Assembly (NCBI RefSeq): GCF_022376445.1
Contig: NW_025954986.1
Location: 62,001 to 126,000 of the forward strand
Length of the DNA stretch: 64,000 nt
Source of the DNA: Fomitopsis serialis
Lineage: Eukaryota > Basidiomycota > Agaricomycetes > Polyporales > Fomitopsidaceae
Reading direction: 5' to 3'
Shown here: positions 3,471 to 56,038 of the stretch, in pieces
Layout: the number at the start of each line of letters is the position of its first letter
Position numbering within the stretch: position 1 is the stretch's first letter
Made by a program: the position numbers and the translations under genes
The notes under the pieces: generated by a model
The model's database searches: none
What the model saw: only the letters and a program-made list of their open reading frames with translations
What the model was told of the DNA's origin: nothing

Positions 3471-3539
3471 ACAGATTTGTAATGCTCTGTACGACCGCCG
3501 TTGTTCAATGCATCACATACCTCGGCTGCAAAAATTAAC

Positions 3540-5100
3540 TGGCCGTACCTACGTGAGTTGCACTCGCCGGCCGGACCGTCAGAATCCACGGCCCGAGGTC
3601 GGTACCTTCATCCATCCCTGTGGCTATACCTAAGTCGCATTCGCCGGCCGGACCGTTTGAATACACGGCCCGAGGTCGGTACCTTCACCCATAGTTGTCA
3701 CAATACCTAAGTCGCATTCGCCGGCCGGACCGTCAGAATCCACGGCCCGAGGTTGGTACCTTCATCCATGTATGAGGCGATACCTGAGTCGCATTCGCCG
3801 GCCGGACCATCAGAATCCACGGCCCGAGGTCGGTACCATACAACGCCGAGGCCGGTACCTTCATCCATCACTGGGGCGATACCGAAGTCGCATTTGCCGG
3901 CCGGACCGTCAGAATTCACGGCCCGAGGTTGCTACCTTCATCCATGTATGAGGCGATACCTAAGTCGCACTCGCCGGCCGGACCGTTAGAATCCACGGCC
4001 CGAGGTCGGTACCTTCACCCATAGTTGTCACAATACCTAAGTCGCATTCGCCGGCCGGACCGTCAGAATCCACGGCCCGAGGTTGGTACCTTCATCCATG
4101 TATGAGGCGATACCTGAGTCGCATTCGCCGGCCGGACCATCAGAATCCACGGCCCGAGGTCGGTACCTTCACCCATAGTTGTGACAATACCTAAGTCGCA
4201 TTCGCCGGCCGGACCGTCAGAATCCACGGCCCGAGGTTGGTACCTTCATCCATGTATGAGGCGATACCTACGTCGCATTCGCCGGCCGGACCGTCAGAAT
4301 CCACGGCCCGAGGTCGGTACCTTCACCCATAGTTGTGACAATACCTAAGTCGCATTCGCCGGCCGGACCGTCAGAATCCACGGCCCGAGGTCGGTACCTT
4401 CACCCATAGTTGTGACAATACCTAAGTCGCATTCGCCGGCCGGACCGTCAGAATCCACGGCCCGAGGTTGCTACCTTCATCCATGTATGAGGCGATACCT
4501 AAGTCGCACTCGCCGGCCGGACCGTTAGAATCCACGGCCCGAGGTCGGTACCTTCACCCATAGTTGTCACAATACCTAAGTCGCATTCGCCGGCCGGACC
4601 GTCAGAATCCACGGCCCGAGGTTGGTACCTTCATCCATGTATGAGGCGATACCTGAGTCGCATTCGCCGGCCGGACCATCAGAATCCACGGCCCGAGGTC
4701 GGTACCTTCACCATAGTTGTGACAATACCTAAGTCGCATTCGCCGGCCGGACCGTCAGAATCCACGGCCCGAGGTCGGTACCCTCATTCATACAGAGCCG
4801 AGGCCGGTACCTTCATCCATCACTGGGGCGATACCGAAGTCGCACTCGCCGGCCGGACCGTTAGAATCCACGGCCCGAGGTCGGTACCTTCATCCATCCC
4901 TGTGGCTATACCTAAGTCGCATTCGCCGGCCGGACCGTTTGAATACACGGCCCAAGGGCGGTACCCTCATCCACACATGGGACCATCCCTGAATCCCTGG
5001 TGGACCGCCACCGGCCGGACCGTTGGGAATGGTGTATTATATATGGTGGCTGTAGCCCCGGACATCTGGATTGATAACACCGGCCGGACCGTTGGACACC
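3540..5100 (+). repeat. 77-bp tandem satellite with a 539-bp higher-order repeat
   Basis: About twenty units share the core CCGGCCGGACCGTCAGAATC followed by CACGGCCCGAGGTYGGTACC. Core starts fall at 3567, 3644, 3721, 3798, 3897, 3974, 4051, 4128, 4205, 4282, 4359, 4436, 4513, 4590, 4667, 4743, 4849, 4926, 5011 and 5080. The spacing is 77 bp for most steps; four later or variant steps are 99, 106, 85 and 69 bp. Unit linkers come in types (ATAGTTGTSACAATACC versus TGTATGAGGCGATACC). The block starting at 3897 recurs at 4436, exactly 539 bp (7 x 77) later and nearly identical, so this is a higher-order array. Short ORFs through it are repeats of the same peptide and are not genes. Confidence 0.95.
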
Positions 5101-6071: not shown

Positions 6072-7603
6072 TGTGGGGTGGGCCCACATGGGAGCACCAG
6101 TACGAGCTCGGAACGACGCACTCTCAGGTGTAGGACAACGCGGAACGAAGCAACGTCGATTGGAGGAAAAACGCCTCGGCGAGGGACGACCAAGTAAAAC
6201 TGCGGATTGAAGACAGCTACTGTACATGAACACCAGGTCCCTCCGGCACCTCATCCTCGACCTCTCCCTCCTCCATCGCCTCGAAGTCCTGAGGGTGCGC
6301 GAACCGCAGGCGACGCGGTATCCCGGAGTAGCCGTCGGGAACGTACACTCCCTCCGATAAGCGAACGTGTAAGTCGCGGACGCTGGCCTCAACAGAATTT
6401 AGGCCTCGGGCGATATGGACAGCCTCGGAACGAGCGTCACGGTTAGCGGTGCGGCACTCATCAAGGAGGCCCTGAAACCGACTAAGGAGGCCGTCGAGGC
6501 TGTCGGAAGAAGCACGATAGGACGAGAGCTGTAAGGGACGCTCTAAGTAGCGAACCGGAAGGAGGGGACGGCCAATCTCTGCGTCGGCTTGCTCGGCGGT
6601 GACTCGGTTCGGGGCCCAGGCAATCAGAGGGAAAGGCTCGCCGAGATAGCTATGCTGCGACGGAAGAGTGAGGAAGACCTGGTCGAGATACTCGATCAGC
6701 TCCTGCACGTCAGGGTAGCGGCGGACGAGCGGAAGGGAAGCATCGCCGTGGGCCACTGCGCGGGAACGAGAGTCGAAGAGCATTCGCTGCGCGGGGAGAA
6801 CGGCCGCTTAGAAGGACGATCGGGAATCAGGACGGAGGAAAAAGGACGCACGATTAACCATCGAGCTCCATGGGCCCAGGCAAGCCATTCGCGGTCACTA
6901 TCGGGGTTCAGGCGAGGCTCTACTACACGCTCGTCGCGGAGAAGATCGATGAGGCGGTAGAACCGGGTGGTGAAGACGATGGTGGACGGGTTTGGGGGAG
7001 CATCGACGGGCATCGGAGACGGTGGGGAGCACTGAGGGCCTGGCGGAGGAAGCGGAAGAAGCTGGAGGAGGGTACGGGGAGGTGTCGGAAGGAGACGAGG
7101 CGGGTGCGGAAGGAACAGGAAAGGAGAGAAACGGATGCCAGCGAGGGTGGGACGTGGGAAAACAGCGGCGGAGGGAGACTTAGAGGGGGAGACGGAGGAA
7201 AAGGGGAGTTAGTTACCTACCACCACCTCTCAGGACTCAGTATCTAGGTTGCACCGGGCAATCTCAGGCTTCAGGTCTCGTCTCAGGCTCGCGTTCAGGC
7301 TAAGGAAGGTCGCAGAAGTTAGGCTCAGGCTCAGGATCGAGGAGAGCTCAGGTTAGGAACGTCGGAGGGAAGGCTATCGAGTATACCAGGCTCAGGAAAG
7401 GGCAGTCTTCACTAAAAGACATCGCGAACGAAGCGTGCGGCGCACCACCCCATCTCCCCTTTCCCTTCCGCGAGGTACCACAGACCTCGCTCGCTTCCTC
7501 CGCCAACTGTCAACTTGTACCAACGACCCCCGCCCATCGTTTTCACCGATACCAAGAATTCCCTTCCGCGTCGTCCACGCACCGGGGACTCGCCATCACC
7601 ACA
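6072..7603 (+). mobile_element. Solo LTR of the gypsy-1 family
   Basis: This 1532-bp copy begins TGTGGGGTGGGCCCACATGG and ends ATCACCACA. It is collinear with the two LTRs of the complete element at 19681-33238, with moderate divergence, mostly third-position-like changes on the minus strand. It is flanked by a 4-bp duplication, ACGC (6068-6071 and 7604-7607). No internal element sequence remains, so it is a solo LTR left by LTR-LTR recombination. It lies inside the decayed ORF of an older element and carries an intact copy of the antisense LTR gene. Confidence 0.9.
6217..7013 (-). CDS. Antisense LTR gene, solo-LTR copy (unknown function)
   Basis: This is a two-exon gene antisense to the LTR. 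Exon 1 is 7013-6852 (54 codons, starting MPVDAPPNPS and ending EWLAWAHGARWLI). The 65-bp intron is 6851-6787 (GTGCGT...CGCAG, phase 0). Exon 2 is 6786-6217 (RMLFDSRSRAVAHG... , 189 codons). The predicted protein is 243 aa, soluble, with a conserved first two thirds and an acidic variable tail. I recognise no known domain. Homologues with the same intron position occur in the gypsy-1 and gypsy-2 LTRs in this window. Against the gypsy-1 LTR copy, hand counting shows mostly synonymous changes, which argues that the protein has been selected. The upstream promoter would lie inside the LTR, pointing away from the retroelement transcript. Confidence 0.75.
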
Positions 7604-13638: not shown

Positions 13639-16600
13639 TCAACCCGGATCTATATCAACGCGTAGGATCGGGGAACTACCCACTAAAAAACCTTTGCACT
13701 TCGTCCAATCATCCGGGAGCGCTAGTTCATCATAAATGACGGCGTTCCATGTGGCTAGGACTAGGTCGTGAGACAGCGCCTGTTTGCCGTATCGCTTTCT
13801 TGTGGCCTCAACGTCTATAGCAAGGCGGCTGTTCAGTACATAGGCGAGTTTGCATCGCACGTGCAGGGGACTGTGTTCCCAGCTTTCTTCATTTTGGTGG
13901 CCAATTACTCTGTCACAGCGTAGTTTCCATATGAGGTGAGTCGCCTCCGAGATCATAATTCGCCATAATCGAGTTGCACCCGGTCTGACTCTATTTCTTT
14001 CGTCTGTCCAGGTTTTCAGTCCTAGGGTGTGAACGTCTACAGTCGTCATGTCTGGCCATGGTAAGCCTTTTTTCAGCCATAGGCCGGTGATTATTTGCCA
14101 TATTTCGCGTTGGCCTGTTGCTGTGCATTCGAACAGTATATGTGTTATTGATTCTGTCATTCCACAGAAGCTACATTGGGCGCGGTGCTCGAGGCCGGGG
14201 ATTGCCAACCAGTAGCTTCCACATCGCAGCGCCCCGTGGATGCATTTCCACAAGAATGTTGCGAAAGATCTGCTGAAGTCTTTATGTCTCGTGCTGAGCC
14301 ATATTGTTTTGTTAGCCATAGTGTCTTCAGGTGTCCTGTTGCGGATGGTGTCAAGGTTCGTAGATGTAACTCGTCTTGGGGGCGTGTTCCTCCATGCTAT
14401 GATCCCTTTGTATGCTAGCGCTTGAGTGAGAGCGGGGAGTTTTGCTCCTGTGATGTCAAACCTCGGGTGCTCAGTGAGCGTTGGGGGAGGGATGAGGGGG
14501 AAGAGATCCAGCGATCGGTTTGAGGAGGCGGATTGTCTCGCTTTATCAAGTGTTTTTCGGTCCTCCGGTCTGACTATCTTCCCTAGGGACGTGACGGCGC
14601 ATCGTTGGCGAAGTCTGTTGAGAAGGACGCGTGTGTGCCTTGCCTGCGATACGTCTATCCAACCGTGGTCTTCCCATTCCGGCGATTTGGTTATAATCAT
14701 GGATGTGAGTATGTCATTTGTGCTCAGGATGCGAAGTGGTGCGTCGAGCGGGGTCTGTGCTACTGCATGCAACGCGGCAATGATTTCTCCTGGTGCCGAA
14801 CTGTGGGAGACGGGGTCTTTGGACACAGGCATCGATGCATTTCTGTGATCGTTTTCTCCGAAGAAAGCGATATATTTGCCAGGAGTCGCAGCTTCTCTTT
14901 CTCCGGTGTTGCTCTCTGGCAGGGCTCTGAAGATGTAGACAAGCGTGGACTCGCTAACTACTTCAAGTCCTGGGCGTTTACGGTGTGAAGGGGGATCGCG
15001 CATCGTGCTAGATTCCACGAAGACGCGGAAAGTTTCAGATATACCGCCTCTAGCGGTGATTGAGGGGTTGAAGGTGAGGGTGTCTCCTTCATTCGTGTTT
15101 GCGATATCGTTACGAAGAGACCGCCTCGTTGTTAAGGATAGGCCGTCTTTGTACTCTATGGAGAGCGGGTTCCACTTCGGTAAAATTTCGCTCAGTATGC
15201 GGAAAGCGGCTAGCCTACATTTCTCTGGGTGTCTGCATCCTGCTGCCCTTGAATTTGAGCATTCGGGGCAGTCACATAGGTCCTCCCCCCAGTTCTGTTT
15301 TTGTTGCGGCGGGGTCGATCCGCATGTTGATCGCGTGGAGTGCAAAAGGTCGGCAACGGTTATGACACCATGATTATCGCGTAGGCAATCGCTGACTTTC
15401 GTGTTGTTTAGTCGTCGTAGGGCCGTCGTTGCTCCAATGTGGTACCACGTTGGGAGTTGCTTCTTGAGCGAAGTGTCTACTTTCAGAGCCTCTAGGTGGG
15501 TTCCGTATTTCTTTGCCGTCGATAACATGGTCTTAATATATTGGGGCATGGAAGACTGTCCTCCGTGTGAGGGGCGCCAGCTTTGAAGGAAAGTATTGAT
15601 TTGCGCTTTCGGTCGGATCTCTCCTGCGTCTCTTGTGGCATATTTATTTATGATGGCGTCCATTGCAAAGGCCCAGGTAGGTCGATTCGGGCCCAGGTCT
15701 AGGTATCGTTTAAGCCACATTAGGTTTATCGCTTCGTTTCTTGATTCAATGTCCAGGAGACCGAGGCCGCCTTCTGTTATAGGTCTGTGCAGGGTTGCGA
15801 GGTTTATTTGTGGGACATTGTTGTTGCCCCACATGAAGGTACGGATTATTTTGGTCAGTTCTACCTCGATTGATTTAGGCATTCCTTGGACTACCGACAG
15901 GTATTGCGATATTCCTCCCGGTCCCATTTGGACTATATGATGTTTGCCGATCATGGACGGTCTGCATTTTCCCCATCTGTCGAGGAAGTTCTTTATTTTC
16001 GTGAGAGCCGGCGTCCATACGCTTACTTGGTCAACTTTGTTTCCTATCCATGCTCCTAGGACTCTAACCGGTTTGCCGTCAGCGGCGATCCGCACATGTT
16101 GAGGGATGTGGTCGGCGGACGGATCCTCTGGGTTTAGGAGACGTGTTCTTACTACTGCTTCTCGGTAAGTTTCAGATCCTACTGGTACTACTTCCGTTTT
16201 GCCGTTATTGAATTTTGCACGGGAGGCGTTACACCATGTCTCAAGGATTTGCCAGAGGTCTTCCCAGCGGTCCTGTTTTGATAAGAAGGTGGAGGTGTCG
16301 TCGGCAAACAGTTTTGTTATTAATTTGTTGGTGGCTCCAGGTATGCGGAAGCCCATTAGCGATGAGCGACGTAGGGCCACTGCCAGCGGTTCGATCGCGA
16401 TGTCAAATAGGAGGCAGGAGAGAGGGTCACCCTGTCGGACGCCCCTTATTACACTGAAGAAGGAGCTAATTTCACCGTTCACAATAGCTTTCGTGCGTGC
16501 ATGTTTGTATAGTGCCTTTATTTTGTTGATGAAGCGTTGCGGTAGATGGAAAGCTTCCAGCGTGCGCCAAAGGTATGTATGGTCGATTTTATCATACGCT

Positions 16601-18785
16601 TTTTCCTGATCAAGGGCTATGATGACTCCATCTTCTTCTAGGTTCTCGGCGTAGTCTACAAGGACGCGACAGGTTTGCGTTTGATCTTCAATGTGTCTTC
16701 CTGGTACAAAGCCGGCTTGGTCGGGGTGGATCAGCTTCTCGGCGACTTGCCCGAGGCGAGATGTGAGTATTCTCGTGTATATTTTGTAATCCGTGTTTAG
16801 GAGGGTGATGGGTCTGTAGTTGCTGATATCTCGGCGATCACCTTTTTTATAGAGCGGACATAACCATCCGTCGGCGAAGCCGCCGGCAGGATTCACTCCG
16901 AAGGACTCTATATCACCGAAAACAATTTGGAGGTATTCAAGGCTGTTGAACGCTCCTTCTCTGGTGTCGCGCATGAAGGTTGACCAGAACTCGTAGGGGA
17001 TCCCGTCCAACCCTGTTGCTCTCCCTGATTGGGCGAGACGGAGTGCGTTTTTTATTTCATCTGTGTCGACGTCTGATGAGAGGGTCTCTAGGTCCGTGTA
17101 GTCGAGACTAGAGTCCAGGGAGTTGAGCACAGTTGAGATCGCGTGTTCTTGATTCATTCTGGAGAACCCGGGGGGGTCGAGATGTTGTATTTGCTCGTGG
17201 TAGGTCTTCGTTAGCTCCGCCATTTTGTCTGACCTAGTTTCATAGGAGGGAGGGTCCGATTGAGGCACTTGGAGGAGATACATAAGGTCCCTTGGTTTTC
17301 GTTCTCGGTTTATCGCGGACCAGTACTTGGTGACGTGTTCTGCATTGATTACGTACCGCGCTGTGGTAGTGAGTTTCGCCGTCTTGTGTCGCTTCCGTTC
17401 CAGCGCTAGTATTCGGTTATGTATGACTGCTGAGTCTGCTTGCATCGAGGCGGATACAGCGTATTCCGGGTGAGCTTCTATTTCCTTTAGGTGCATAGAT
17501 AGGCGGTTAATCTCAGACCTTATCTTAGGAGACCGTTCCTTTTGGACCCGTTTCGCTAGCTCCCTAAGGTCGTTTTTAAAACGCGAGTGCAGAATTTGGA
17601 TTGGGCTGGGGAAGTCATTGCCATCTAGGTGCGTGGTGGATTTCATCATTTTGATTGTTGCTGTGCCGAGTTCAGCAGCTGATTTTTTAAACTCATCGTC
17701 ATCTAGGAGATGTGAGGGGAGGTTCCATCTGCCTCGTCCGATATAGGGCGCTGATCGGGTGCTTAGGTGTGCACAGATCAGCCTGTGATCAGTTTGTACT
17801 CCCGTCGTCTTAATGGACCATTCTTGTGAAGACATGATTAGTTCGTTTGTCGCATATATTCTGTCAAGTCTTGATCTCGATGCGCTACCCCTCTGTGGGA
17901 AGGTGAAGTCCTTTTTTGAGGGTTCGGATAGTCTCCATCCGTCAAATAGGTTGAGACAACGTAGTAAGGATCTTAGGTTTTGTACTGCCGTGGGTGAGTC
18001 TTCCTTCGCAGGGATTCTGTCAATTGCTTCTTCTACGATATTGAAATCTCCGACCAAGAGGTCGGGTTTGCAGAGCTTTCCATTTTCTACCATCTGCAGC
18101 AATTGTTGCCAGAAAGCGGTGTTGTCTTGCGGGGGTTGGGCGCATAGACATTCATTATCGTGAGGTGTTTGTTTGCGTGCCAGTGAGTCCTGAGTAGTGT
18201 TGCTCTCCCGGGAATGATCTCCGTGAACTGGGTACCCGCGGTGTCTACTAGTTCGCGGTTTAGTATTGTTGCAACACCTTGGGAGGACGTTGCAGAGGTT
18301 GAACATGAGTTATGTATCGTGATCCTCCTTCCGTAGATATTTTCTATGTTCTGGACGTCAGAGTCGTTTAGGTGTGTCTCTTGTAGGCACAGTATGCCAA
18401 TTCTATCTTCTCTTAGGAGTTGATTGATTTCATTCCATTTCTGGTTCTGGGGGCCTGTCATGCCTCCACGCCCGTTTATGTTGAGCGAGCAAACGTGTAT
18501 GCCTGCTTTTGTTTTCCGTCCTGATGTTTTAGCAGGAGTCTGCTTTGCCGGTGTTAAGGGGGTTTCCCTTGGATGTCGTCGGCCCCTAGGCCTTGGTCCT
18601 GCAACCGGTTGTGTCAGGGAGTGCAGAGGGGCAGCCCCGTCTCCAGGTTCCTCCATCTGATCATCGAGACCAGCGTGGGCGGGGGACGCGTTGAGCTCTC
18701 TCTGATGGAGGAGAGGTAAGCCAGTTGTTGTGAGATCGTCCGTATGGTTGGTTAGATTTATGTTGTTCACCGTTGCGCTACACAT
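13639..18785 (-). CDS. LINE ORF2: endonuclease-reverse transcriptase, one frameshift
   Basis: The N-terminal segment (18785-18136) has an EEP/APE endonuclease start (VCSLNINGRGG, CLQETHL). It then changes frame at a G5 run (18131-18135 on +) into a continuous frame reaching 13639. That frame carries the rest of the endonuclease (LLVGDFN, RLDRIYATNEL, TDHRLICAHL) and the RT domain (YRPITLLNTDYKIYTRIL, LDQEKAYDKI, RQGDPLSCLLFDI, LFADDTSTFL). It ends with two Cys/His clusters (CDCPECSN...GCRHPEKC and CSFCGMTESITHILFEC). Together these nick target DNA and copy LINE RNA at the nick. The catalytic DD and GDFN residues are present. A single missing base in the C/G homopolymer is the only break seen, so it is either a recent pseudogene or a sequence error. 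Confidence 0.9.
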
Positions 18786-19680: not shown

Positions 19681-21261
19681 TGTGGGGCAGGCCCACATGG
19701 GAACAGCGGTACGAGCCCGGAACGACACACGCACTCAGGCCCAGGCAATGCGGAGCGAAGCGACATCCATTGGCGGAAGGACGACTCGGCGGAAGGACAA
19801 CCAATATAAGAACACGCGGGAGGAAGACGGCTACAGTACATGGACAACAGGCTCCTCCCCCATGGCGTCCTCAACCTCTCCTTCCTCCAGATCATCGACA
19901 TCCCTAACAGGCGCGAACCGCAGGCGGCGAGGTACCCCGGAGTAGCTGTCTGGGACGTAGACTCCCTCCGACAGGCGGGCGTGCAAGTCGCGGACGCCGC
20001 CCTCGACCGTATTCAAGCCCCGGGCGATACGAACAGCTTCGGAACGAGCGTCGCGGTTAGCGGTGCGGCACTCGTCTAGGAGGCCCTGGAACCGAGTAAG
20101 GAGGCTGTCGAGGCTGTCGGACGAAGCGCGGTAGGACGAGAGCTGTAAGGGACGCTCCAAGTAGCGAACCGGAAGGAGGGGACGACCAATCTCTGCGTCG
20201 GCCTGCTCAGCGGTGACCCGATTTGGGGCCCAGGCGATCAAAGGGAAGGGTTCGCCCACGTAGCTATGCTGCGACGGAAGAGTGAGGAAGACTTGGTCGA
20301 GGTACTCGATCAGCTCCTGCACGTCGGGATAGCGGCGGACGAGCGGAAGGGAAGCGTCGCCGTGGGCAACCGCACGGGAACGAGAGTCGAAGAGCATTCG
20401 CTGCGGGGGGGACGGCTTAGAGGGGGATCAGGACGAAGGACGAAGGAAAAGACGCACGATTAACCACCGAGCTCCATGGGCCCAGGCAAGCCATTCGTGG
20501 TCGCTATCGGGTTCAGGCGAGGCTCGACAACACGTTCGTCGCGGAGAAGATCGATGAGGCGGTAGAACCGGGTGGTGAAGACGATGGTGGACGGGTTCGG
20601 GGGAGCATCGGCAGGCATCGCAGACGGTGGGGAAACACTGAGAGCTAGGCGGAGGGGGCGGAAGGAGCTGGAGAAGGGTATAGCGAGGCGTCGGAAGGAG
20701 GCGGAGGGAGCGGAAGGAGTTGGAGAGGGGTACGGCGAGGGGTCGGAAGGAGACGCGGCGGGTGCGGAAGGAACGGGAGAGGAGAGGAACGGGTGCCAGC
20801 GAGGGTAGGACGTGGGAAAACGGTGGCGGGAGGAGACTTAGAAAGGGGGACAGAAGGAGGGAGGGAGTTAGTTACCTACCACTACCTCTCAGGACTCAGT
20901 ATCTAGGTTGCACCGGGCAATCTCAGGCTTCAGGTCTCGTCTCAGGCTCGCGCTCAGGCTAAGGAAGGTCGCATAAGTTAGGCTCAGGCCCAGGATCGAG
21001 GAGAACTCAGGTTAGGAACGTCGGAGGGAAGGCTATCGAGTATACCAGGCTCAGGAAAGGCAGTCTTCACTAAAGGACAGCGCGGACGAAGCGTGCGGCA
21101 CACCTCCCCATTCTCCCTTTTCCCTCTGCGAGGTACCACGGACCTCGCTCGCTTCCTCCGCCAACCGTCAACTGGTACCAACGACCCCCGCCCATCGTTT
21201 TCACCGATACCAAGAATTCCCTTCCGCGTCGTCCACGCACCGGGGACTCACAATCACCACA
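19681..21261 (+). repeat. gypsy-1 5' LTR (1581 bp)
   Basis: It starts TGTGGGGCAGGCCCACATGG and ends ATCACCACA. It contains the antisense LTR gene in its left half and CTCAGGCT-type short repeats near its right end (about 20920-21060). Against the 3' LTR it lacks one G near 20510 and one G near 20730, with about four substitutions. Confidence 0.95.
19831..20618 (-). pseudogene. Antisense LTR gene, 5' LTR copy, frameshifted in exon 1
   Basis: Exon 2 (20400-19831, 189 codons) and the intron (20457-20401, GTGCGT...CGCAG) are intact and identical in structure to the 3' LTR copy. Exon 1 (20618-20458) lacks one G near 20510 relative to the 3' LTR copy, which breaks the frame before the EWLAWAHG motif. 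The two LTRs would be identical at insertion, so this is a later mutation or a sequence error. Confidence 0.7.
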
Positions 21262-21263
21262 AC

Positions 21264-21280
21264 TGGAGCCCACCGCGAGG
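21264..21280 (+). promoter_or_regulatory. gypsy-1 primer binding site
   Basis: TGGAGCCCACCGCGAGG starts two bases after the 5' LTR. TGG pairs with a tRNA 3' CCA. The implied tRNA end reads GGTGGGC-U-CCA with U at the discriminator position, which would fit tRNA-Cys among others. The same 17 bases occur at the PBS of gypsy-2. Confidence 0.8.
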
Positions 21281-21964
21281 GGGATTTCGTTGGTAAAATC
21301 TTGTTGACCCAACCCCGGGTGCCACGTCATCCTGCCTATCACACGGTCCCGAGCGAAAACTCTTGCTACCGTCCCTAATCGTTCAGAGCCTCGCACCCCT
21401 ACGAGAAGTCTACTCGAGGAGCTCGCTATCGTACATCACTCCCCGGACTCGCCGTACGACCCATCGCTCAGGGTACCCGCACTAGACGGCATTCCCCTTC
21501 CGCGCGCTGACGACAGTGACGGAGAGAACCTGTTCCTCGATCCGGCTGACAGCACCCTCACCTCTGCACCTGCATCATCACCAACTCGAAGCTCAGCGTC
21601 GAGCGAGTCGATCCCATTAGCAAACGTACCTCGGCGGCGAGCATACTCTACCCCGTCCGCGCTCTCCTCCTCGACCAAGTCAGTGGGCAGCCCCGTATCG
21701 GTGCCGGCCTCGGTTCCGCTTCCTCCCTCACCATATCCCATCAATGTTCCACTTCCAGAATCACCCGTCTCAATATACGCATCACTGCCATCGTCGCCTG
21801 TCGACGAAACCATACCCCTGCTCGTAGTCCCTTTAATCCCGTATCTCGCAATTCCCTCCGACATATCGGAGACAATTTCCTCCGTCTCATCTGTTACTCC
21901 CTCCGACGAGTCTCGAGCTCGTTCCCCTTTCCTCCGCACTCCTTCCGCCCAACCAGAAAATAAA

Positions 21965-28133: not shown

Positions 28134-28817
28134 TCAAGCGGAGGGGGCGGAAGGTGCGGGTGTCGCGTCGGAAGGAGAGCGTGACCCGCGGAGGGGCGGA
28201 GAGGGATGGGCAGACGAGCTGGATGGGGTGGAGCGGATATGCTCAAGAACGTATGAGAGCTGGGTCTCGATGACGTCGAGGGCGGCCTGGACGGAGGAAT
28301 CGTTTTGGATAGTGTCGAGACGGGATCGGATATAACCCCGGAAGGCCTCCAGGGCGCGGACCTTCTCGGCGAGGGTGTCGAGTCGACGGTCAACGGTGCC
28401 ACAATCGAAGCCGGCGCGGATCTCGAGGCGTCGCTGGGTGTTAAGGAAGGACTCGTAGTTCCTCCGGTGCTCCAGGAACAAATCAAGGAGTCCGTTAACT
28501 TGGATCGCGATGCGTGTGTCTCCGCGATCGATATCCCTGGCGTGACTCTCGAGCATCGTGTTAACGGTGCGGCGGAACTCGACGAACTCGTCCCAGATGC
28601 GCTCCTGTTGGCGGATCTGCCGGGCGGAAGAAGCCTCAAGACGGGTAAGGCGCTCCTCGATAGGAAGGGTGGAGATCGGGACGGGCGCGGAAGGGTCGAC
28701 GGGTGAGGGCGATGGGGGGAACGGAAGGGGAATCTCGTCGGGGTCGAAGAAGGGACGGTGCCCGACGCTGGAGGGACGGCGAGCGGCGGGAGGAATGCGA
28801 GTCCGAAGGCCACTCAT
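28134..28817 (-). CDS. Antisense coiled-coil gene in gypsy-1
   Basis: This is an open frame antisense to pol, ending 23 bp past the pol stop (convergent, tail to tail). I start at the ATG at 28817 (MSGLRTRIPPAARR); an upstream in-frame ATG at 29024 exists but the sequence before 28817 has Leu/Pro-rich, non-coding-like composition. The 227-aa product has a Pro-rich N-terminus, a long helical, probably coiled-coil middle (EERLTRLEASSARQIRQQER...NTMLESHARDIDRG...ALDVIETQLSYVLEHI) and a Ser/Pro-rich tail. It has no known domain. Position and strand match the antisense genes of gypsy-2, but sequence homology is not demonstrable by eye. Confidence 0.6.
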   Translation of the reverse strand: MSGLRTRIPPAARRPSSVGHRPFFDPDEIPLPFPPSPSPVDPSAPVPISTLPIEERLTRLEASSARQIRQQERIWDEFVEFRRTVNTMLESHARDIDRGDTRIAIQVNGLLDLFLEHRRNYESFLNTQRRLEIRAGFDCGTVDRRLDTLAEKVRALEAFRGYIRSRLDTIQNDSSVQAALDVIETQLSYVLEHIRSTPSSSSAHPSPPLRGSRSPSDATPAPSAPSA

Positions 28818-29258: not shown

Positions 29259-31357
29259 CTACTGACCCTCCTCCGACTCACATTCCGGCTCGGGCTTCTC
29301 GGGACCCTCCATCTCTACATCTTCGTCGAGCTCATCGTGTTCGTCCTCCGGATCGGGGACTTCGGGGGCACCAAGCATACCGGGGCGGTGGAAGAACTGC
29401 TGGAGTTCTCCAGATCGGCTGGCCATCCAATCAAGCCGATCCTGGACAGTCCGGAGGCGAGGTGGGGCGGCGGGTGCGACCGAACGAACCGGGGGAGGCC
29501 GCGAGGGACCAGCGACCGGCTCGAGGGATGGGGAAGGAGCGGGAGGCTGAGGAGGCGGCGCGGGAGCACCGCGGAACGGGAAGTCAGATCGGACGTCCGA
29601 GGGGCGGGGACCGACGAGGGTGCCCCCGGGGGCAGTGACCCAGTCATACGAGTCAAGGGCGGATCGAGGAAGGTCGGGATGGTGGCCAATGTAGAAGAAG
29701 CTTGGAGCTCCCTCTTCTGGAAAGCAAGGGGATGAGTGAGCAGGAGGCAGAGGCGGAAGAAGACCGGGAACTCACTGAAGGCGCTGAACACGCACCTTTT
29801 CTTCCGCGAACTACACGCGGCACACGCATGGCACGGAAGGGCATCAATGCGGCAGCGGAAGCCGTTCCGACGGCACTCGGGGCAGGGGGTAGTCGGTGAA
29901 TAGACGAACGGCCCATACCGAGGGCGCTCGGCGTTAGAGGTGCGCTGCGGGACCGGAGGGAATTTGTCGGGGAGGGCGGGGGACGGAAGGACAATGGTCG
30001 GGGAGGGTGAGACGTCGGGAACGGCTCCACGGTTCGGAAGCTTGAGGTGAACGCGGCGGGGCATCGGACGAGACGGACGAGGGTCGGGAGGGGAGGACGG
30101 CTGGGTCGGGCGGTACAGTCGGGTGCCAATATTGCTGGCGAAAATCGCCTCCTCCAGCGCACGAGGCGACATGGATCGGGCCGGACTGTCGTCCTCAATC
30201 GTATCGATGGGCGGCGGAGTCGGCGGGGCCCGTGACAGTGCAGTTCCGCGAGGAGGACCGGGTGGCGGAGAGGGGATGGAAGGCGCAACAGGCGGAGACG
30301 GGGATGGCGCAAAAAGAGGAAGAGGAGGGGCCGAAGCGCCTCGTTCAGTGAACAGAGGGGAGGAGCCGGGCGGCCGCGGAGACGCGGACGGAGCGGGAGG
30401 AGGGACGGAGGGGTCCCGCAGGTCGAGGGAAGGCGAAGACGCGGGCGGCGGGGTGCGGATGGAGAAGGCGGGAGGCGGAACGGAAGGGTCTCGGTCGGTG
30501 AACGAGAGGGACGAGGCGCGAGCATAGCGACCGCCGGAGGAGGAGGACGGCTCGGGGAACGGAAAACCGAACGGGCCGGCCACGGAAAGCCGAGGCTCAG
30601 GCACCGAAACCTCCTCAGAGGCCGCGGGAGGGACGAGGGACGAGGGAACGAGCTCGTCGTCAGCGGCGGGCTCGGGGACCGGGTCGTCGTACTCTATGGG
30701 AGACGGAGGCGGGAGATGGGCGGAGGGCGATCCGGCCGGCTCTGGGACGGGAGACAGGTGTGCAGCGACGGCAGGGGGCGGGGACGGACGGGGCACGGGC
30801 GACGGGGACGGAGCGCGAGAGGCGGGACGACGGGATGTGGCGAGGACGGCGGGGGAGAGCTCGAAGGTGGTGCCGGCCCAGTAGCCAGTCGAGCCGTACC
30901 GGCGGCCACGCAGTTGGGCCTCCTGCCGGAGGGTCTGGAGGGAACCCTGGTACCGGGAGGGCTGGCTGGCGAAGCCGTCCAGCCGCTCCCAGAAGGCGTC
31001 CAAAGCGGCCTCGGTTTCGGGACGCAAACGCGTCTCGAACAGCCCGTTGGTGAGGACGTAGTCGAGGTGCACGTCGTACACGGCCTGGAAGGACCTGTGA
31101 GCGTGGAGGACGGGGAGAGAGGCATCGGAGGTACTCACCCAGGCGTAACATAACTGGCGACCCCAGATCAACCACGCGCCCGCCTGCGCGTGCGACGGAT
31201 GGCGGCCCATGGTCGGCTCTCGAGCGGCGACAACGCTGATTCGCGCCTCAAGGGAGACCAGTTCAGCGGAGGCGGCGAGGCGGACTGGATAGTCCTCGTC
31301 GGGGAGACCGGCGGTGAAGTCCAGAGTGGCGGAAGGAGACGGGGAAGGACGAGACAT
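29259..31357 (-). CDS. Antisense Zn-cluster gene in gypsy-1 (679 aa, two exons)
   Basis: Exon 1 is 31357-29776 and exon 2 is 29716-29259. The 59-bp intron (29775-29717) has GTGAGT, a CTCAC branch region and TTTCCAG, and the spliced length is divisible by three. The N-terminal region (about residues 1-160) is globular and helical (WLIWGRQLCYAW, HLDYVLTNGLFETRL). A long Pro/Ser-rich disordered middle follows. At residues 492-522 there are six cysteines spaced C-x2-C-x6-C-x9-C-x2-C-x6-C with KKRC at the end, the spacing of Gal4-type Zn2Cys6 DNA-binding domains, although these usually sit at the N-terminus. The C-terminus is strongly acidic, resembling an activation domain. It lies antisense between integrase and the 3' LTR. 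Inference: a DNA-binding regulator encoded by the retrotransposon. Confidence 0.75.
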
Positions 31358-31655: not shown

Positions 31656-33238
31656 TGTGGGGCAGGCCCACATGGGAACAGCGGTACGAGCCCGGAACGA
31701 CACACGCACTCAGGCCCAGGTAATGCGGAGCGAAGCGACATCCATTGGCGGAAGGACGACTCGGCGGAAGGACAACCAATATAAGAACACGCGGGAGGAA
31801 GACGGCTACAGTACATGGACAACAGGCTCCTCCCCCATGGCGTCCTCAACCTCTCCTTCCTCCAGATCATCGACATCCCTAACAGGCGCGAACCGCAGGC
31901 GGCGAGGTACCCCGGAGTAGCTGTCTGGGACGTAGACTCCCTCCGACAGGCGGGCGTGCAAGTCGCGGACGCCGCCCTCAACCGTATTCAAGCCCCGGGC
32001 GATACGAACAGCTTCGGAACGAGCGTCGCGGTTAGCGGTGCGGCACTCGTCTAGGAGGCCCTGGAACCGAGTAAGGAGGCTGTCGAGGCTGTCGGACGAA
32101 GCGCGGTAGGACGAGAGCTGTAAGGGACGCTCCAAGTAGCGAACCGGAAGGAGGGGACGACCAATCTCTGCGTCGGCCTGCTCAGCGGTGACCCGATTTG
32201 GGGCCCAGGCGATCAAAGGGAAGGGTTCGCCCACGTAGCTATGCTGCGACGGAAGAGTGAGGAAGACTTGGTCGAGGTACTCGATCAGCTCCTGCACGTC
32301 GGGATAGCGGCGGACGAGCGGAAGGGAAGCGTCGCCGTGGGCAACCGCACGGGAACGAGAGTCGAAGAGCATTCGCTGCGGGGGGGACGGCTTAGAGGGG
32401 GATCAGGACGAAGGACGAAGGAAAAGACGCACGATTAACCACCGAGCTCCATGGGCCCAGGCAAGCCATTCGTGGTCGCTATCGGGGTTCAGGCGAGGCT
32501 CGACAACACGTTCGTCGCGGAGAAGATCGATGAGGCGGTAGAACCGGGTGGTGAAGACGATGGTGGACGGGTTCGGGGGAGCATCGGCAGGCATCGCAGA
32601 CGGTGGGGAAACACTGAGAGCTAGGCGGAGGGGGCGGAAGGAGCTGGAGAAGGGTATAGCGAGGCGTCGGAAGGAGGCGGAGGGAGCGGAAGGAGTTGGA
32701 GAGGGGGTACGGCGAGGGGTCGGAAGGAGACGCGGCGGGTGCGGAAGGAACGGGAGAGGAGAGGAACGGGTGCCAGCGAGGGTAGGACGTGGGAAAACGG
32801 TGGCGGGAGGAGACTTAGAAAGGGGGACAGAAGGAGGGAGGGAGTTAGTTACCTACCACTACCTCTCAGGACTCAGTATCTAGGTTGCGCCGGGCAATCT
32901 CAGGCTTCAGGTCTCGTCTCAGGCTCGCGCTCAGGCTAAGGAAGGTCGCATAAGTTAGGCTCAGGCCCAGGATCGAGGAGAACTCAGGTTAGGAACGTCG
33001 GAGGGAAGGCTATCGAGTATACCAGGCTCAGGAAAGGCAGTCTTCACTAAAGGACAGCGCGGACGAAGCGTGCGGCACACCTCCCCATTCTCCCTTTTCC
33101 CTCTGCGAGGTACCACGGACCTCGCTCGCTTCCTCCGCCAACCGTCAACTGGTACCAACGACCCCCGCCCATCGTTTTCACCGATACCAAGAATTCCCTT
33201 CCGCGTCGTCCACGCACCGGGGACTCGCAATCACCACA
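31656..33238 (+). repeat. gypsy-1 3' LTR (1583 bp)
   Basis: It is nearly identical to 19681-21261. It starts TGTGGGGCAGG, ends CACCACA, and is followed by the GCGC target duplication and then LINE ORF1. Confidence 0.95.
31806..32594 (-). CDS. Antisense LTR gene, 3' LTR copy, intact (243 aa)
   Basis: Exon 1 is 32594-32433 (54 codons, MPADAPPNPSTIV... to WAHGARWLI). The 57-bp intron is 32432-32376 (GTGCGT...CGCAG, phase 0). Exon 2 is 32375-31806 (RMLFDSRSRA..., 189 codons, acidic tail). Conserved blocks are FYRLIDLLRDERVVEPR, EWLAWAHGARW, FDSRSRA, YPDVQELIEYLDQVF, PFPLIAWAP and RPLLPVRYLERPLQLSSYR. The function is unknown, with no catalytic signature, signal peptide or membrane segment. Homologous spliced copies sit at the same place in the gypsy-2 LTRs. 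The open frame is maintained in four of the five LTRs in this window. Confidence 0.8.
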
Positions 33239-43889: not shown

Positions 43890-45557
43890 TGATGAGCCCT
43901 TAGCTCACCTACCCACCGAAAACGCGATTTACGGTCGGTACGACAGTATACTAAGTCCGTATGGTCGACGCGCTATCCGCCCGTTCGAGGGAACCGTCCG
44001 ATGTTCGAAGCTCAAGTGTCAATGTTCGGAACCCTTAGTGGCAGAGGCAAGTGGTTTAGAAGCGTCGCTACATTGGTAGGACTCCGGAGCAAGTACATGG
44101 CTACGTCAACCTAGCTAGTGACGACCCCGGCAACTCTCGTATCTATGTCCTCGACCACCACACCCGTGACCACCACCCCTACCCCTACGAACAGACGGAC
44201 CGGTGTCGGAGCCACGATCAGTGTTGACGCGCTCGAGTAGGCTTTCGAGCAACCCGACGAGGGTGCCGTGCGTGCGGCGCTGGTCGACTGCGATGTTGTG
44301 AATCGCTCTACCCATGGACTCGAGGTTGTCGGGCAGCTGGCGAAAGTCGGACAGGATCAACGACTCGCGCTGATACTGCAGGTTCGCGAGGGGACGACGC
44401 TCGGCCTGGTTGACTTGTTCGAGCAGTACCAAGGTCTCGGACCACGCGATCGTAGGGTAGGGCGAACCTAGGATGTCTCCCTGGTTGCCATCGCGGTGAA
44501 AGACCTCGTCGAGGTAACGCATCAACTCGTCGATCTCGGGGAACGACCTAGGAGCAGGAAGCGTATCGTTCGCCAGCAGGATGGCCCGACTGCGGGACTC
44601 GAACAAGAATCGCTGTTCGAAGGTCGGTTCGATGGTTCGAACGATAGTCTAAGTTCGGAGGCACGTACAATCATCCAACGGACTCCGTGAGCCCAAGCCA
44701 GCCACTCTCCGGGACTGTTGGCATCGTATCGCGGCTCGACAAGTCCCTCGGTCTTGAGGACCTCTAGGAGGCGGTAGTAGCGGGCAGCATACGCTTCGGA
44801 AGTTGGGTCGAGGTGCGGCATGTTCGTGTAAGTCAGGCGAACTCCCGCAGCTGTCTCATATCTTCGAGGACTGTCACCGGCCCCGGTTATGTCCTTCGCC
44901 GTTCGGGGACGGTCGCCCGTTATGCGGAACCTGCGGAAGGCCGAGTTGGATTCTCTCATGTGTTAGTAGGTCCGGGTCGAGCGTTGTGACATTCTCCGAT
45001 TGGCTGCTTTCCTTATCACTTTCATTCATCATGTCTTGTATTTCTCTTGGCTCTCTTGGTCTTCGGACCGTATTTTCCTGTATATACTCTGGGACTTGTT
45101 CCCTTCGAATCTCAGAGACCCCCTACCCTCTCAATCTCACCTCGCGCCGGCGAGGTTCGTCAGCCAGCCAGTACGTTCGAAAGTCAGCAAGTTCGCCAGT
45201 CAGTCAGTACGTTCGAAGTCAGTCAGTCAGTTCGCCAGTACGTTCGCCAGCTCGTAGTTGCCCCGAGAGGCTCTACACTTCTTCTCCTGCCGTCGCTCGC
45301 CTCTCTTGTCACCGTTCGTTCGACACGTCTGTCGAAACCCTCCCTCCTACCTCCGAGGCTTAGCCCTCGTCTTCGAACAGTCTTCGACATCTTCGAAGCT
45401 CTCCCACGTCGTTCGGAGTCTTGTCCGTCCTCCTCCTTCTTACCTAGACCACTGTACAGTCCCCCGTACATCACATAGACGCAGAGGCCTCGCATACCAC
45501 TGCTCGACCTCACGGTTGGGTTTTTGTGTGGCTTTTGTGTTCTTTTCGGTCGCGTCA
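43890..45557 (+). repeat. gypsy-2 5' LTR (1668 bp)
   Basis: Starts TGATGAGCCCTTAGCTC and ends TCGGTCGCGTCA. It contains the antisense gene on its left half, a TATA-like GTATATAC at about 45080, and a GTTCGCCAGTCAGTCAGT repeat cluster at about 45170-45255. TTCGAA occurs eight times. Confidence 0.95.
44115..44821 (-). CDS. Antisense LTR gene of gypsy-2, 5' LTR copy (216 aa)
   Basis: Exon 1 is 44821-44669 (51 codons, MPHLDPTSEAYAARYYRLLE... to GVRWMI). The 56-bp intron is 44668-44613 (GTACGT...AACAG, phase 0). Exon 2 is 44612-44115 (RFLFESRSRAILLAND..., 165 codons), ending in a Gly/Arg/His-rich tail. The open frame extends upstream to an ATG at 44959; I choose 44821 because gypsy-1 starts at the equivalent Met-Pro. 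It is homologous to the gypsy-1 LTR gene along most of its length (EWLAWAHGxRW, F-S-R-S-R-A, ELxxYLDxVF, PxPxIAW, RPL..xxY.R..L.LS.xR), with the intron at the same codon. Function unknown. Confidence 0.82.
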
Positions 45558-45560
45558 TCT

Positions 45561-45577
45561 TGGAGCCCACCGCGAGG
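45561..45577 (+). promoter_or_regulatory. gypsy-2 primer binding site
   Basis: TGGAGCCCACCGCGAGG lies three bases after the 5' LTR and is identical to the gypsy-1 PBS, implying the same tRNA primer. Confidence 0.8.
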
Positions 45578-46135
45578 GGGATATAGAGCAAGATTCCGCC
45601 GCGTCGGAACTTCGACGTCAACCCTGAAGACTACCGAGACTACGAAAGTCCTCTTCTCGCACTCGCTATCGACAGTCGTCTAGGTCCCGGATCCGCCGCC
45701 GCCTTTCGCAGGCATAGCAACCCTCTACCAGGACCTTCGACTATCCCCTCTTCGTCCGAACACGTCGAGCTTGTCCCCGATCACGACGATCAGGAACGCT
45801 CCGCTCGAGACCAAGTACCTACTACCCCATCCCATCCCGGACGTGCTCGAAGACTTTCGCTCTCAGACGACCTAGAGTCTCGAGTCTTTGGCTCTCCTCT
45901 ACCGTCCCTAACGCCGTCGCCGCCTCTCGAAGGAGAGGACCTCAGTTCAGCCACGCCGATCACGACGCGTAGTGGAGCCACCACCTCACGTCTACCTTTA
46001 CCCACTCGTCGCAGAGCGTCGTTAGCCCCTCCAGGACCAGAGTCGTCCGAGCCGCGAAGGACTTCGACCAGCGACAACCAAAACCCTTCGAACGATCCAC
46101 CAAATCCTTCGAACCCTCCGAACACTGATACGAAC

Positions 46136-52322: not shown

Positions 52323-53992
52323 CTAACGCTTACGGGACGCCGAACGCAAACACGGGCTACAAACACAACGGACGGTACTACGAATACGACCTACTTCGAA
52401 CCCTTGCCCTTCGAAGGTCCCGCGATGGGCCGGCAGCAGGAGGATCGAAGGCCCCACGCGCGACGGCCGTAGACTCGACGAACAATTGGTCGACGCGACG
52501 ACCGTAGTACTCTTGCAGCCCTTCGAGCATTGCGAGTTCGAGGCCCATGAGGTTGAGCGAGGCCTCCACGTTGCCGATGCGTTCGTTGGTCGCCGAGAGT
52601 GCCGCGCGAGCCTCGGCGAGCGAGCGGACGGGGGCGCCCTGAGACTGGAGAATCGCCGATATGTCGATCGGCGGGGCCTGCGTCTGTGCGGCGTGCAGGG
52701 CCGCGGCGGCACGGGGGTGGAGGGGCGTGCGCGACGGTACGAAGCCTGCGAGCCCGAGGCAGGGACCGTGACAGGAGCGGGCGCGGGGGCAGCGGGTTCC
52801 TCGGAGTCGCCCCGCTTACCTACGAAACGGAGATGTCAGCTACGAACAGCACCGAAATCTTCGAAGAACTAAGGCGAACTTACCGGCACGACGAGCCTTG
52901 CGAGTACCAGACAAAGTGGCGGCGCCCCAGTAGCAGCCCTGCTGGTCGTGCAGGCACTGGTTACACACCACCGCGTCGGCCTCGAAGACGCATTCCTTCG
53001 AGGTAGCGTAGCCGGCGGCGCAGCGATCGCACTGAGTCGCGAACAGTTAGCAGAATCAAACGAAGAAAAACGTTAGGGCACATACCGACATAGTCCGGTC
53101 ACGGACTGTAGTCGCGCGAGCAATGAGCTTGCGGACGGCGGTGTCCGTAACGTCGGGGGCCGAGCCGTCAGCGGGGGCCTTGCGCTTTTTGGTCTTCTTC
53201 GAGCCTTTGGGCTCGGGGACCACCTCGACTTCGGGCGACTCGGCGCGAACGGTCGACGCATCGGAGGCGGTGGGGGACGGAGCACGCAATTTACCTTTTC
53301 CCCGGACACCCGACCGGCCACGTCGTGGCAAGGCCTTCTCCTCGCGACGCTGGCGATCAGCCTCGCGCTTGTGCGCCTCGGCGGCCTCCTCGAGCTCGGC
53401 GGCCTCGCGGCGTTCGAGTTCCTCGGCCTTGGCGGCCTCGCGTCGTGCGCTTTCCTCGGCCTCGGCGGCCTCCTGTCGCTCGCGGCTCTCGCGCTCTTCG
53501 GCCTCCTTGCGCAGCTGGGCTTGGTTCGCTTCCCAGCGACGGCGGTCCTCGGCCTCCTTGCGCGCGTGATTGATAGCGGCGTCGAGCAGTGGCCACTGCA
53601 TGTTCTCGGCGCATTGGCGCGCGGCCTCCGGATTGGCGTGAGTGGCGAGGACGAGCAGCCGTCCCAACGCGTTCGCGTAACGGGCAGCGAGGGCCGCGCC
53701 CTTAGTCACGCGAGTGTACCGATTCTTCGAACACTTAAATTAACAAGACTTAAACGAGACGGACGCGACTTACCATGGCAGCGAAGGCGCCCTCAATCCA
53801 CTCTTCAATCGCCTCAGGGTTCTCTGGGACGAGGTGCGCCACGACCCAATTGGCGAGCGGAGCCATTGGGCTCTTCGGGTCGTGCGGAACGGGGAAGCCG
53901 GTTTTGGGATCCACGGTGTAGTCGGCGTCCGACGCAGGCGCGCCGGCGAGATCAGGGACGGGCGCGGGAGCGGAGGCAGGCGAGGCGGACAT
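52323..53992 (-). CDS. Antisense Zn-cluster/coiled-coil gene in gypsy-2 (about 490 aa, four exons)
   Basis: Exons are 53992-53774, 53700-53086, 53031-52884 and 52819 to 52323. Introns are 53773-53701 (GTAAGT...CTAAG), 53085-53032 (GTATGT, CTAAC, CTCAG) and 52883-52820 (GTAAGT...CGTAG). The N-terminal 73 residues (VDPKTGFPVPHDPKSPMAPL...WIEGAF) lead into a helical domain and a long charged coiled coil (EAEDRRRWEANQAQLRKEAE...). Basic KKTKKRKAP is a probable nuclear signal. Exon 3 begins with six cysteines (residues 279-311): C-x2-C-x9-C-x8-C-x2-C-x6-C. In the last exon two frames are open. The alternative one, ending at 52378, encodes a coiled coil (EARAALSATNERIGNVEASL...), so a one-base indel is possible. 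It has the same place and strand as the Zn-cluster gene of gypsy-1. Confidence 0.7.
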
Positions 53993-54369: not shown

Positions 54370-56038
54370 TGATGAGCCCTTAGCTCACCTACCCACCGAA
54401 AACGCGATTTACGGTCGGTACGACAGTATACTAAGTCCGTATGGTCGACGCGCTATCCGCCCGTTCGAGGGAACCGTCCGATGTTCGAAGCTCAAGTGTC
54501 AATGTTCGGAACCCTTAGTGGCAGAGGCAAGTGGTTTAGAAGCGTCGCTACATTGGTAGGACTCCGGAGCAAGTACATGGCTACGTCAACCTAGCTAGTG
54601 ACGACCCCGGCAACTCTCGTATCTATGTCCTCGACCACCACACCCGTGACCACCACCCCTACCCCTACGAACAGACGGACCGGTGTCGGAGCCACGATCA
54701 GTGTTGACGCGCTCGAGTAGGCTTTCGAGCAACCCGACGAGGGTGCCGTGCGTGCGGCGCTGGTCGACTGCGATGTTGTGAATCGCTCTACCCATGGACT
54801 CGAGGTTGTCGGGCAGCTGGCGAAAGTCGGACAGGATCAACGACTCGCGCTGATACTGCGGGTTCGCGAGGGGACGACGCTCGGCCTGGTTGACTTGTTC
54901 GAGCAGTACCAAGGTCTCGGACCACGCGATCGTAGGGTAGGGCGAACCTAGGATGTCTCCCTGGTTGCCATCGCGGTGAAAGACCTCGTCGAGGTAACGC
55001 ATCAACTCGTCGATCTCGGGGAACGACCTAGGAGCAGGAAGCGTATCGTTCGCCAGCAGGATGGCCCGACTGCGGGACTCGAACAAGAATCGCTGTTCGA
55101 AGGTCGGTTCGATGGTTCGAACGATAGTCTAAGTTCGGAGGCACGTACAATCATCCAACGGACTCCGTGAGCCCAAGCCAGCCACTCTCCGGGACTGTTG
55201 GCATCGTATCGCGGCTCGACAAGTCCCTCGGTCTTGAGGACCTCTAGGAGGCGGTAGTAGCGGGCAGCATACGCTTCGGAAGTTGGGTCGAGGTGCGGCA
55301 TGTTCGTGTAAGTCAGGCGAACTCCCGCAGCTGTCTCATATCTTCGAGGACTGTCACCGGCCCCGGTTATGTCCTTCGCCGTTCGGGGACGGTCGCCCGT
55401 TATGCGGAACCTGCGGAAGGCCGAGTTGGATTCTCTCATGTGTTAGTAGGTCCGGGTCGAGCGTTGTGACATTCTCCGATTGGCTGCTTTCCTTATCACT
55501 TTCATTCATCATGTCTTGTATTTCTCTTGGCTCTCTTGGTCTTCGGACCGTATTTTCCTGTATATACTCTGGGACTTGTTCCCTTCGAATCTCAGAGACC
55601 CCCCTACCCTCTCAATCTCACCTCGCGCCGGCGAGGTTCGTCAGCCAGCCAGTACGTTCGAAAGTCAGCAAGTTCGCCAGTCAGTCAGTACGTTCGAAGT
55701 CAGTCAGTCAGTTCGCCAGTACGTTCGCCAGCTCGTAGTTGCCCCGAGAGGCTCTACACTTCTTCTCCTGCCGTCGCTCGCCTCTCTTGTCACCGTTCGT
55801 TCGACACGTCTGTCGAAACCCTCCCTCCTACCTCCGAGGCTTAGCCCTCGTCTTCGAACAGTCTTCGACATCTTCGAAGCTCTCCCACGTCGTTCGGAGT
55901 CTTGTCCGTCCTCCTCCTTCTTACCTAGACCACTGTACAGTCCCCCGTACATCACATAGACGCAGAGGCCTCGCATACCACTGCTCGACCTCACGGTTGG
56001 GTTTTTGTGTGGCTTTTGTGTTCTTTTCGGTCGCGTCA
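54370..56038 (+). repeat. gypsy-2 3' LTR (1669 bp)
   Basis: Near-identical to 43890-45557, with one extra C in a C run near 55600. It ends TCGCGTCA, followed by the GCGG duplication and purine-rich element B DNA. Confidence 0.95.
54595..55301 (-). CDS. Antisense LTR gene of gypsy-2, 3' LTR copy
   Basis: Exon 1 is 55301-55149, the intron 55148-55093, and exon 2 is 55092-54595. It is identical in structure to the 5' LTR copy, with one substitution seen (LQYQ versus PQYQ in exon 2). Both copies are open, although the sense pol of this element is not. Confidence 0.82.

Follow-up and report, generated by a model that had tools for sequence, protein, structure and literature searches.

HTLV-1 carries HBZ, a spliced antisense gene that is transcribed from the 3' LTR and whose product regulates LTR transcription, and related deltaretroviruses have antisense genes of this kind as well. 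The gene analyzed here, found in LTRs of Fomitopsis serialis, resembles HBZ in belonging to an LTR element and in being antisense and spliced, its transcription and splicing being predictions in our case. However, HBZ lies mostly outside the LTR and encodes a bZIP protein, whereas the present gene has both exons within the LTR, occurs twice per element and encodes a product in which neither bZIP nor any other Pfam domain was detected. The sag gene of MMTV also encodes an accessory protein in the LTR, but does so on the sense strand, unlike the antisense gene described here with its intron inside the LTR. Plant Ty3/gypsy elements can contain additional antisense ORFs between the integrase and the 3' LTR, as do the elements described here (internal genes, below), but those ORFs lie outside the LTR, unlike the LTR gene. 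Dose-dependent control of copy number by an element-encoded protein, the role proposed in this study, is known from p22/p18 of Ty1; these are truncated forms of Gag encoded on the sense strand, whereas a search revealed no resemblance of the LTR protein to ORFs of the Gag region. Fungal Zn2Cys6 (Gal4-type) regulators (PF00172) are characterized by the spacing C-x2-C-x6-C-x5-12-C-x2-C-x6-8-C, which they have in common with an internal antisense protein of our elements. Unlike in these regulators, the internal cluster scores below the Pfam cut-off and is located near the C-terminal part, and the LTR protein lacks the cluster. We know of no gene that lies wholly within LTRs and is both antisense and spliced.

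Antisense genes in the LTRs of the window

The window, i.e., the whole stretch of 64,000 nucleotides that was analyzed (C179:62001-126000, in a 66.2-Mb assembly of 806 contigs), contains five long LTRs, each with a two-exon gene on the minus strand:

6072..7603, + strand, solo LTR of subfamily B, ACGC repeats at both flanks
6217..7013, - strand, open gene of the solo LTR, 243 aa: exons 7013-6852 and 6786-6217, intron 6851-6787 (65 bp)
19681..21261, + strand, gypsy-1 5' LTR
19831..20618, - strand, gene of the gypsy-1 5' LTR: 1-base frameshift in exon 1, intact exon 2 at 20400-19831, intron 20457-20401
31656..33238, + strand, gypsy-1 3' LTR
31806..32594, - strand, open gene of the gypsy-1 3' LTR, 243 aa: exons 32594-32433 and 32375-31806, intron 32432-32376 (57 bp)
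43890..45557, + strand, gypsy-2 5' LTR, TG...CA
44669..44821, - strand, gypsy-2 5' LTR gene, exon 1: 51 codons, ATG at 44821
44613..44668, - strand, gypsy-2 5' LTR gene, intron: 56 bp, GTACGT...CAG, phase 0
44115..44612, - strand, gypsy-2 5' LTR gene, exon 2: 165 codons and stop
54370..56038, + strand, gypsy-2 3' LTR
54595..55301, - strand, gypsy-2 3' LTR gene: exon 1 55301-55149, intron 55148-55093, exon 2 55092-54595; open

All five LTRs start with TG and end with CA, and 4-bp flanking repeats were read by eye for the solo LTR (ACGC), gypsy-1 (GCGC) and gypsy-2 (GCGG). The two LTRs of an element are 99.6% identical in gypsy-1 and 99.9% identical in gypsy-2. Between gypsy-1 and gypsy-2 LTRs, blastn gave no alignment, despite an identical putative primer-binding sequence after both 5' LTRs (21262-21290 and 45558-45585, by eye); a purine-rich tract just before both gypsy 3' LTRs was likewise read by eye. 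In gypsy-1 pol, the Pfam search identified an aspartyl protease (below cut-off), RT_RNaseH, Integrase_H2C2 and a weak rve on the plus strand, and in gypsy-2 pol RT_RNaseH followed by Integrase_H2C2, also on the plus strand; RVT_1 was not matched in the gypsy-1 and gypsy-2 ORFs given to this search. With near-identical TG...CA LTR pairs and pol domains in order, integrase last, both elements are of the Ty3/gypsy type. As the protease, RNase H and integrase domains are on the plus strand, this is the sense strand and the LTR gene is antisense. Elsewhere in the window, a 1556-codon ORF (13639-18309, minus strand) with reverse transcriptase and endonuclease-like domains represents a non-LTR retroelement, and a 77-bp tandem repeat array is present at 3439-5097.

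The gene models bear out the preliminary description, which had reported a two-exon minus-strand gene in all five LTRs, with an intron of 56-65 bp at the same codon and phase in both gypsy families. The introns are in phase 0 and measure 65 bp (solo), 57 and 57 bp (gypsy-1) and 56 and 56 bp (gypsy-2), with donors GTGCGT or GTACGT and acceptor AG. The predicted products are, as described before, 243 aa (solo and gypsy-1) and 216 aa (gypsy-2) in length, and four of the five copies are indeed open; the exception is the gypsy-1 5' copy, in which a 1-base frameshift affects exon 1 and leaves exon 2 undamaged. The gene is placed in the 5' half of the LTR. The gypsy-2 LTR contains a sole TATATA (45081-45086), approximately 260 bp ahead of the start codon of the LTR gene, that reads on both strands; no TATATA of that form occurs in the gypsy-1 LTR.

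Subfamilies, selection and orientation of the LTR gene

Searching the assembly with exon 2 of gypsy-1 yielded 150 scored matches among 171 candidates, and with exon 2 of gypsy-2 151 matches among 170 candidates, of which 150 were scored; these counts are lower bounds. By gene model, the LTR-gene matches listed sort into six subfamilies (complete models have a start, a GT-AG intron and a full-length exon 2):

Subfamily A (gypsy-1): intron 57 or 55 bp; complete models 11/15
Subfamily B (solo LTR): intron 65 bp; complete models 5/6
Subfamily B2: intron 60 bp; complete models 8/8
Subfamily C: intron 62 bp; complete models 3/4
Subfamily E: intron 48-49 bp; complete models 3/6
Subfamily G2 (gypsy-2): intron 56 bp; complete models 29/31

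A gene model was obtained in 77 of the 78 fetched loci (L024 has none), and it is complete in 59 of 71 loci after removal of seven repeats of other loci, a proportion biased upward because the loci mostly came from the top of the match lists. Intron codon and phase are the same across all six subfamilies, and GT-AG is kept. Among the matches listed, exon 2 identity to gypsy-1 is about 85-89% for B and B2, 60-61% for C, 53-55% for decayed C-like copies, 41-46% for most E and 34-39% for G2. Two C-like LTR copies (L071 on C791 and L072 on C148) differ from C in a manner that, by eye, resembles C-to-T decay. The preliminary description had given GTRNGT as the donor; this applies to the window copies and C and, with few exceptions, to A, B, B2 and G2, but not to E, in which the donors are GTACGC or GTACAC. 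It had also taken the gene to be conserved between divergent gypsy families, and homologues proved neither absent from nor broken in all other LTR families, since six subfamilies carry the gene. No confirmed relative was present among 38 pattern matches in a collection of viral contigs and 51 in a collection of prokaryote genomes, where none was expected.

Selection was assessed by the Nei-Gojobori method between subfamily representatives (12 translated). Values of dN/dS are 0.13-0.16 for A-B, 0.08-0.10 for A-B2, 0.08 for B-B2 and 0.08 for B2-B2 (0.08-0.16 among A, B and B2), about 0.15 for E-E, 0.11 for G2-G2, and 0.15-0.17 for A-C at a dS of 1.7-2.0. Few changes underlie the values for A-A2 (0.26) and B-B (0.33), constraint is less clear for C-C' (0.41), and comparisons of A, B, B2 or C with E or G2 gave 0.22-0.54 at saturated dS. 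Changes at codon positions 1/2/3 number 15/15/57 for A-B, 24/16/98 for A-B2 and 17/15/84 for B-B2. Over seven representative pairs, the gene frame has no stops and each of the five other frames has 3-17. A low dN/dS (0.18-0.43) is also seen in frame 1 of the opposite strand, as expected from the wobble positions that it shares with the gene, yet this frame contains 7-13 stops. Across their 243 codons, the exons of A, B and B2 are free of indels, while the introns are 53-70% identical with gaps and varying length and the flanks are 66-82% identical. The LTR gene is under purifying selection at the protein level for the lineage as a whole.

It could be argued that there is no gene, and that constraint on LTR DNA (a promoter or RNA structure) or chance preserves an open frame. 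Young copies are near identical, and open frames alone are therefore weak proof. A chance ORF and constraint on DNA alone were nevertheless rejected on the third-position excess, the stops in the five other frames and the dN/dS values. The retention of GT-AG in six subfamilies and of indel-free exons next to diverged introns of variable length further speaks against an absence of a gene, and the one other frame with low dN/dS mirrors the wobble positions of the gene. We consider this explanation highly improbable; the LTR gene is almost certainly a real, selected protein-coding gene.

We compared the orientation of 148 LTR-gene places (from the exon 2 matches listed, without short and duplicate pieces) with that of 45 pol places (from 78 pol matches, without further pieces of the same element), pairing over a range from 12 kb upstream to 9 kb downstream of pol. 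Of the 49 pairings obtained, 47 have the LTR gene in antisense to pol. The two sense pairings, on C681 and C322, each also have an antisense LTR gene, so that the sense gene may perhaps derive from another insertion. At 10 of the 45 pol places no LTR gene was recognized in range. For one of these (C265) an antisense LTR gene is located about 10.6 kb away, past the range cut, and some of the remaining ones are pols with 39-50% identity; where pols of 39-54% identity do have LTR genes beside them, these pols are gypsy-2-like. The LTR gene is thus lineage-bound among pols, gypsy-2-like pols having such neighbors and 10/45 pol places none that was recognized. Downstream of one pol of another lineage (C160; one stretch, one element), the LTR-gene motif was absent from 3 kb. 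Among LTR genes separated by 8-13.5 kb, 14 pairs share a strand and 5 have opposite strands; 11 of the 14 same-strand pairs are of the same subfamily, as expected for the two LTRs of an element, and 3 join neighbors or pieces.

Internal antisense genes and their relation to the LTR gene

Both elements contain further antisense genes between the integrase and the 3' LTR:

29792..31357, - strand, 5' part of the internal antisense gene of gypsy-1: exon 1 at 31357-31139 and exon 2 from 31084, separated by an in-frame intron (31138-31085)
about 29884-29792, - strand, Zn2Cys6-like Cys cluster of the gypsy-1 internal gene
28137..28817, - strand, gypsy-1 second antisense gene, coiled-coil-like by eye, adjoining the integrase ORF
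53774..53992, - strand, putative exon 1 of the internal antisense gene of gypsy-2, followed by an intron at about 53773-53725
52879..53046, - strand, gypsy-2 internal exon with Cys cluster C-x2-C-x9-C-x8-C-x2-C-x6-C

The gypsy-1 internal antisense ORF comprises 700 codons, and the gene probably extends beyond a further intron to about 29259. In gypsy-2, the antisense exons at 52379-53992 (minus strand) form a separate, divergent set that ends in a coiled-coil-like part. With these genes by the 3' LTR, which the preliminary description had overlooked, the elements possess a larger group of antisense genes to which the LTR gene belongs. Elsewhere in the genome, the start of the internal gene matched 36 places, the Cys-cluster part 24 and the coiled-coil-like ORF 22. 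C and E versions of the latter two were identified by eye (L080 and L081), the C copy L080 being broken at the cluster. An internal-gene remnant about 50% identical to gypsy-1 (L083, C56:66300-69800) lies next to chromodomain-looking sequence (by eye), which is possibly another inserted gypsy lineage; the remnants in this C56 element are broken up by other sequence.

The Cys spacing is C-x2-C-x6-C-x9-C-x2-C-x6-C in A, the C131 type and E, which fits that of Zn2Cys6 proteins, while gypsy-2 has x9 for x6. The cluster is located downstream of a Pro-rich stretch. The internal protein P0001 scored 17.0 bits against PF00172, below the Pfam gathering score of 21 bits; three other internal proteins matched no Pfam family, and neither did the gypsy-2 Cys-cluster exon. 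In the C131 copy the compared parts of the internal gene lie in different frames, and each was therefore compared separately. The internal gene is constrained as well: between A and the C131 type, dN/dS is 0.075 for exon 1, 0.22 for the first 110 codons of exon 2, and 0.18 and 0.155 around the Cys cluster (the latter for 75 aa with the cluster).

Representatives of A, B2, the C131 type, C and E have the first intron of the internal gene (splice sites picked by eye) in phase 0, 12 codons past the W of a W-L-x-W-A/G motif. The intron of the LTR gene is found at the same place, 12 codons past the W of its own W-L-x-W-A/G. The C56 copy agrees with this spacing (by eye), and the gypsy-2 internal intron lies 9 codons past its W, not 12. 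Comparison of the spliced N-terminal parts by hhalign gave a score of 20.3, with a probability of 2.8% and a P of 0.016; this score was reached by 2 of 400 column shuffles, and the reversed alignment scored 13.2. With unspliced internal sequence the probability was 1.9% and P 0.026, and hmmsearch of the full LTR-protein profile against the unspliced internal ORF gave no match (E 0.86). In the AlphaFold2 models, low in confidence for both the LTR protein and the internal module, helices occur in similar order. An apparent 'DASLP' similarity of the LTR protein to the internal ORF was discarded, as this stretch is intron in the internal gene. The alignment used for the internal module excludes row L074:2-235, which was wrongly placed. 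Judging mainly from intron position and profile comparison, the LTR gene is on balance probably a short paralogue of the internal Cys-cluster protein.

Possible role of the LTR protein

No Pfam family, bZIP included, matched the 243-aa or 216-aa LTR protein at E up to 10, no PDB sequence matched the 243-aa protein at E up to 5, and the six-Cys cluster is absent from all 12 translated representatives. AlphaFold2 models of the LTR protein (a subfamily B2 copy, modeled with its in-frame intron retained) and the internal module have a pLDDT of 45.7 and 44.3, respectively, and with models this poor the fold supports no domain. The tail of the LTR protein is RG-rich in gypsy-2 and acidic in A, B and B2, and thus indicates no single function.

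Its position towards the 5' end, within the first half of the LTR, and the TATATA of gypsy-2 suggest that the LTR gene most likely lies in U3, and that U3 could act as a divergent promoter, driving gag-pol in sense and the LTR gene in antisense. A gene in U3 would be copied into both LTRs in each round of reverse transcription and would persist in solo LTRs. As the modest alignment scores hint, its product would be paralogous to the N-terminal module of the internal protein, in a short form lacking the Zn2Cys6-like cluster, and might act in trans on element transcription. A relation to the internal N-terminal part together with the absence of the cluster would suit a protein that pairs or competes with the cluster-bearing one at the LTR, which seems the most likely form of such action. 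Every LTR, whether solo or not, would add to the dose, which could feed back on activity or copy number. That the LTR gene encodes a trans-acting regulator of an ambisense Ty3/gypsy lineage is a tentative reading, and we regard the whole chain, from selected gene through paralogy to regulation, as possible rather than probable. Its most specific form, a copy-counting switch in which the LTR encodes a selected, spliced repressor or co-regulator, namely a truncated paralogue of the DNA-binding protein encoded antisense within the element, with a further dose from every insertion or leftover solo LTR, is doubtful.

Other roles can be envisaged for a selected LTR gene. VANC proteins of VANDAL transposons are the model for anti-silencing by element-borne proteins, and by analogy the LTR and internal antisense proteins might bind element DNA and counter host silencing, with solo-LTR copies aiding their relatives. 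The element bears selected, non-catalytic antisense genes, and the Cys cluster in one of them is DNA-binding-like. This would suit such a function, as would the C-to-T-like decay in L071 and L072 (by eye), yet we consider it unlikely. An accessory structural or nucleic acid-binding protein of the particle or of integration, rather than a regulator, would agree with the RG-rich tail of gypsy-2 and with the long C-terminal helix of the LTR-protein model, its sole stretch with a pLDDT of 70-80. Yet conservation does not extend to this tail, which is acidic in A, B and B2; there was no match to the Gag region ORFs below E 0.1, and the antisense position in no way links the gene to the genomic RNA. 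Such a protein appears quite unlikely. A captured host gene, riding in the LTR and mainly serving its own spread, is improbable: among the approximately 150 matches listed per search no non-LTR parent gene is evident, and the divergence of the LTR gene tracks that of pol, identity to gypsy-1 dropping in the rough order B/B2, C and E, gypsy-2. The intron and fungal-type splice sites are nonetheless what a captured gene might bring, and the region between integrase and 3' LTR, where the internal genes lie, is a typical site of gene capture.

Irrespective of its role, a selected protein gene inside LTRs breaks with the general view of these repeats as control sequence alone. Solo LTRs, often the most abundant relics of these elements, can code for protein, and gene annotation may label element proteins as host genes. 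Given a selected gene in the LTR, U3 could serve transcription both ways. If it is true that the product controls the element by dose, this lineage would provide a directly testable case of retrotransposon self-limitation.
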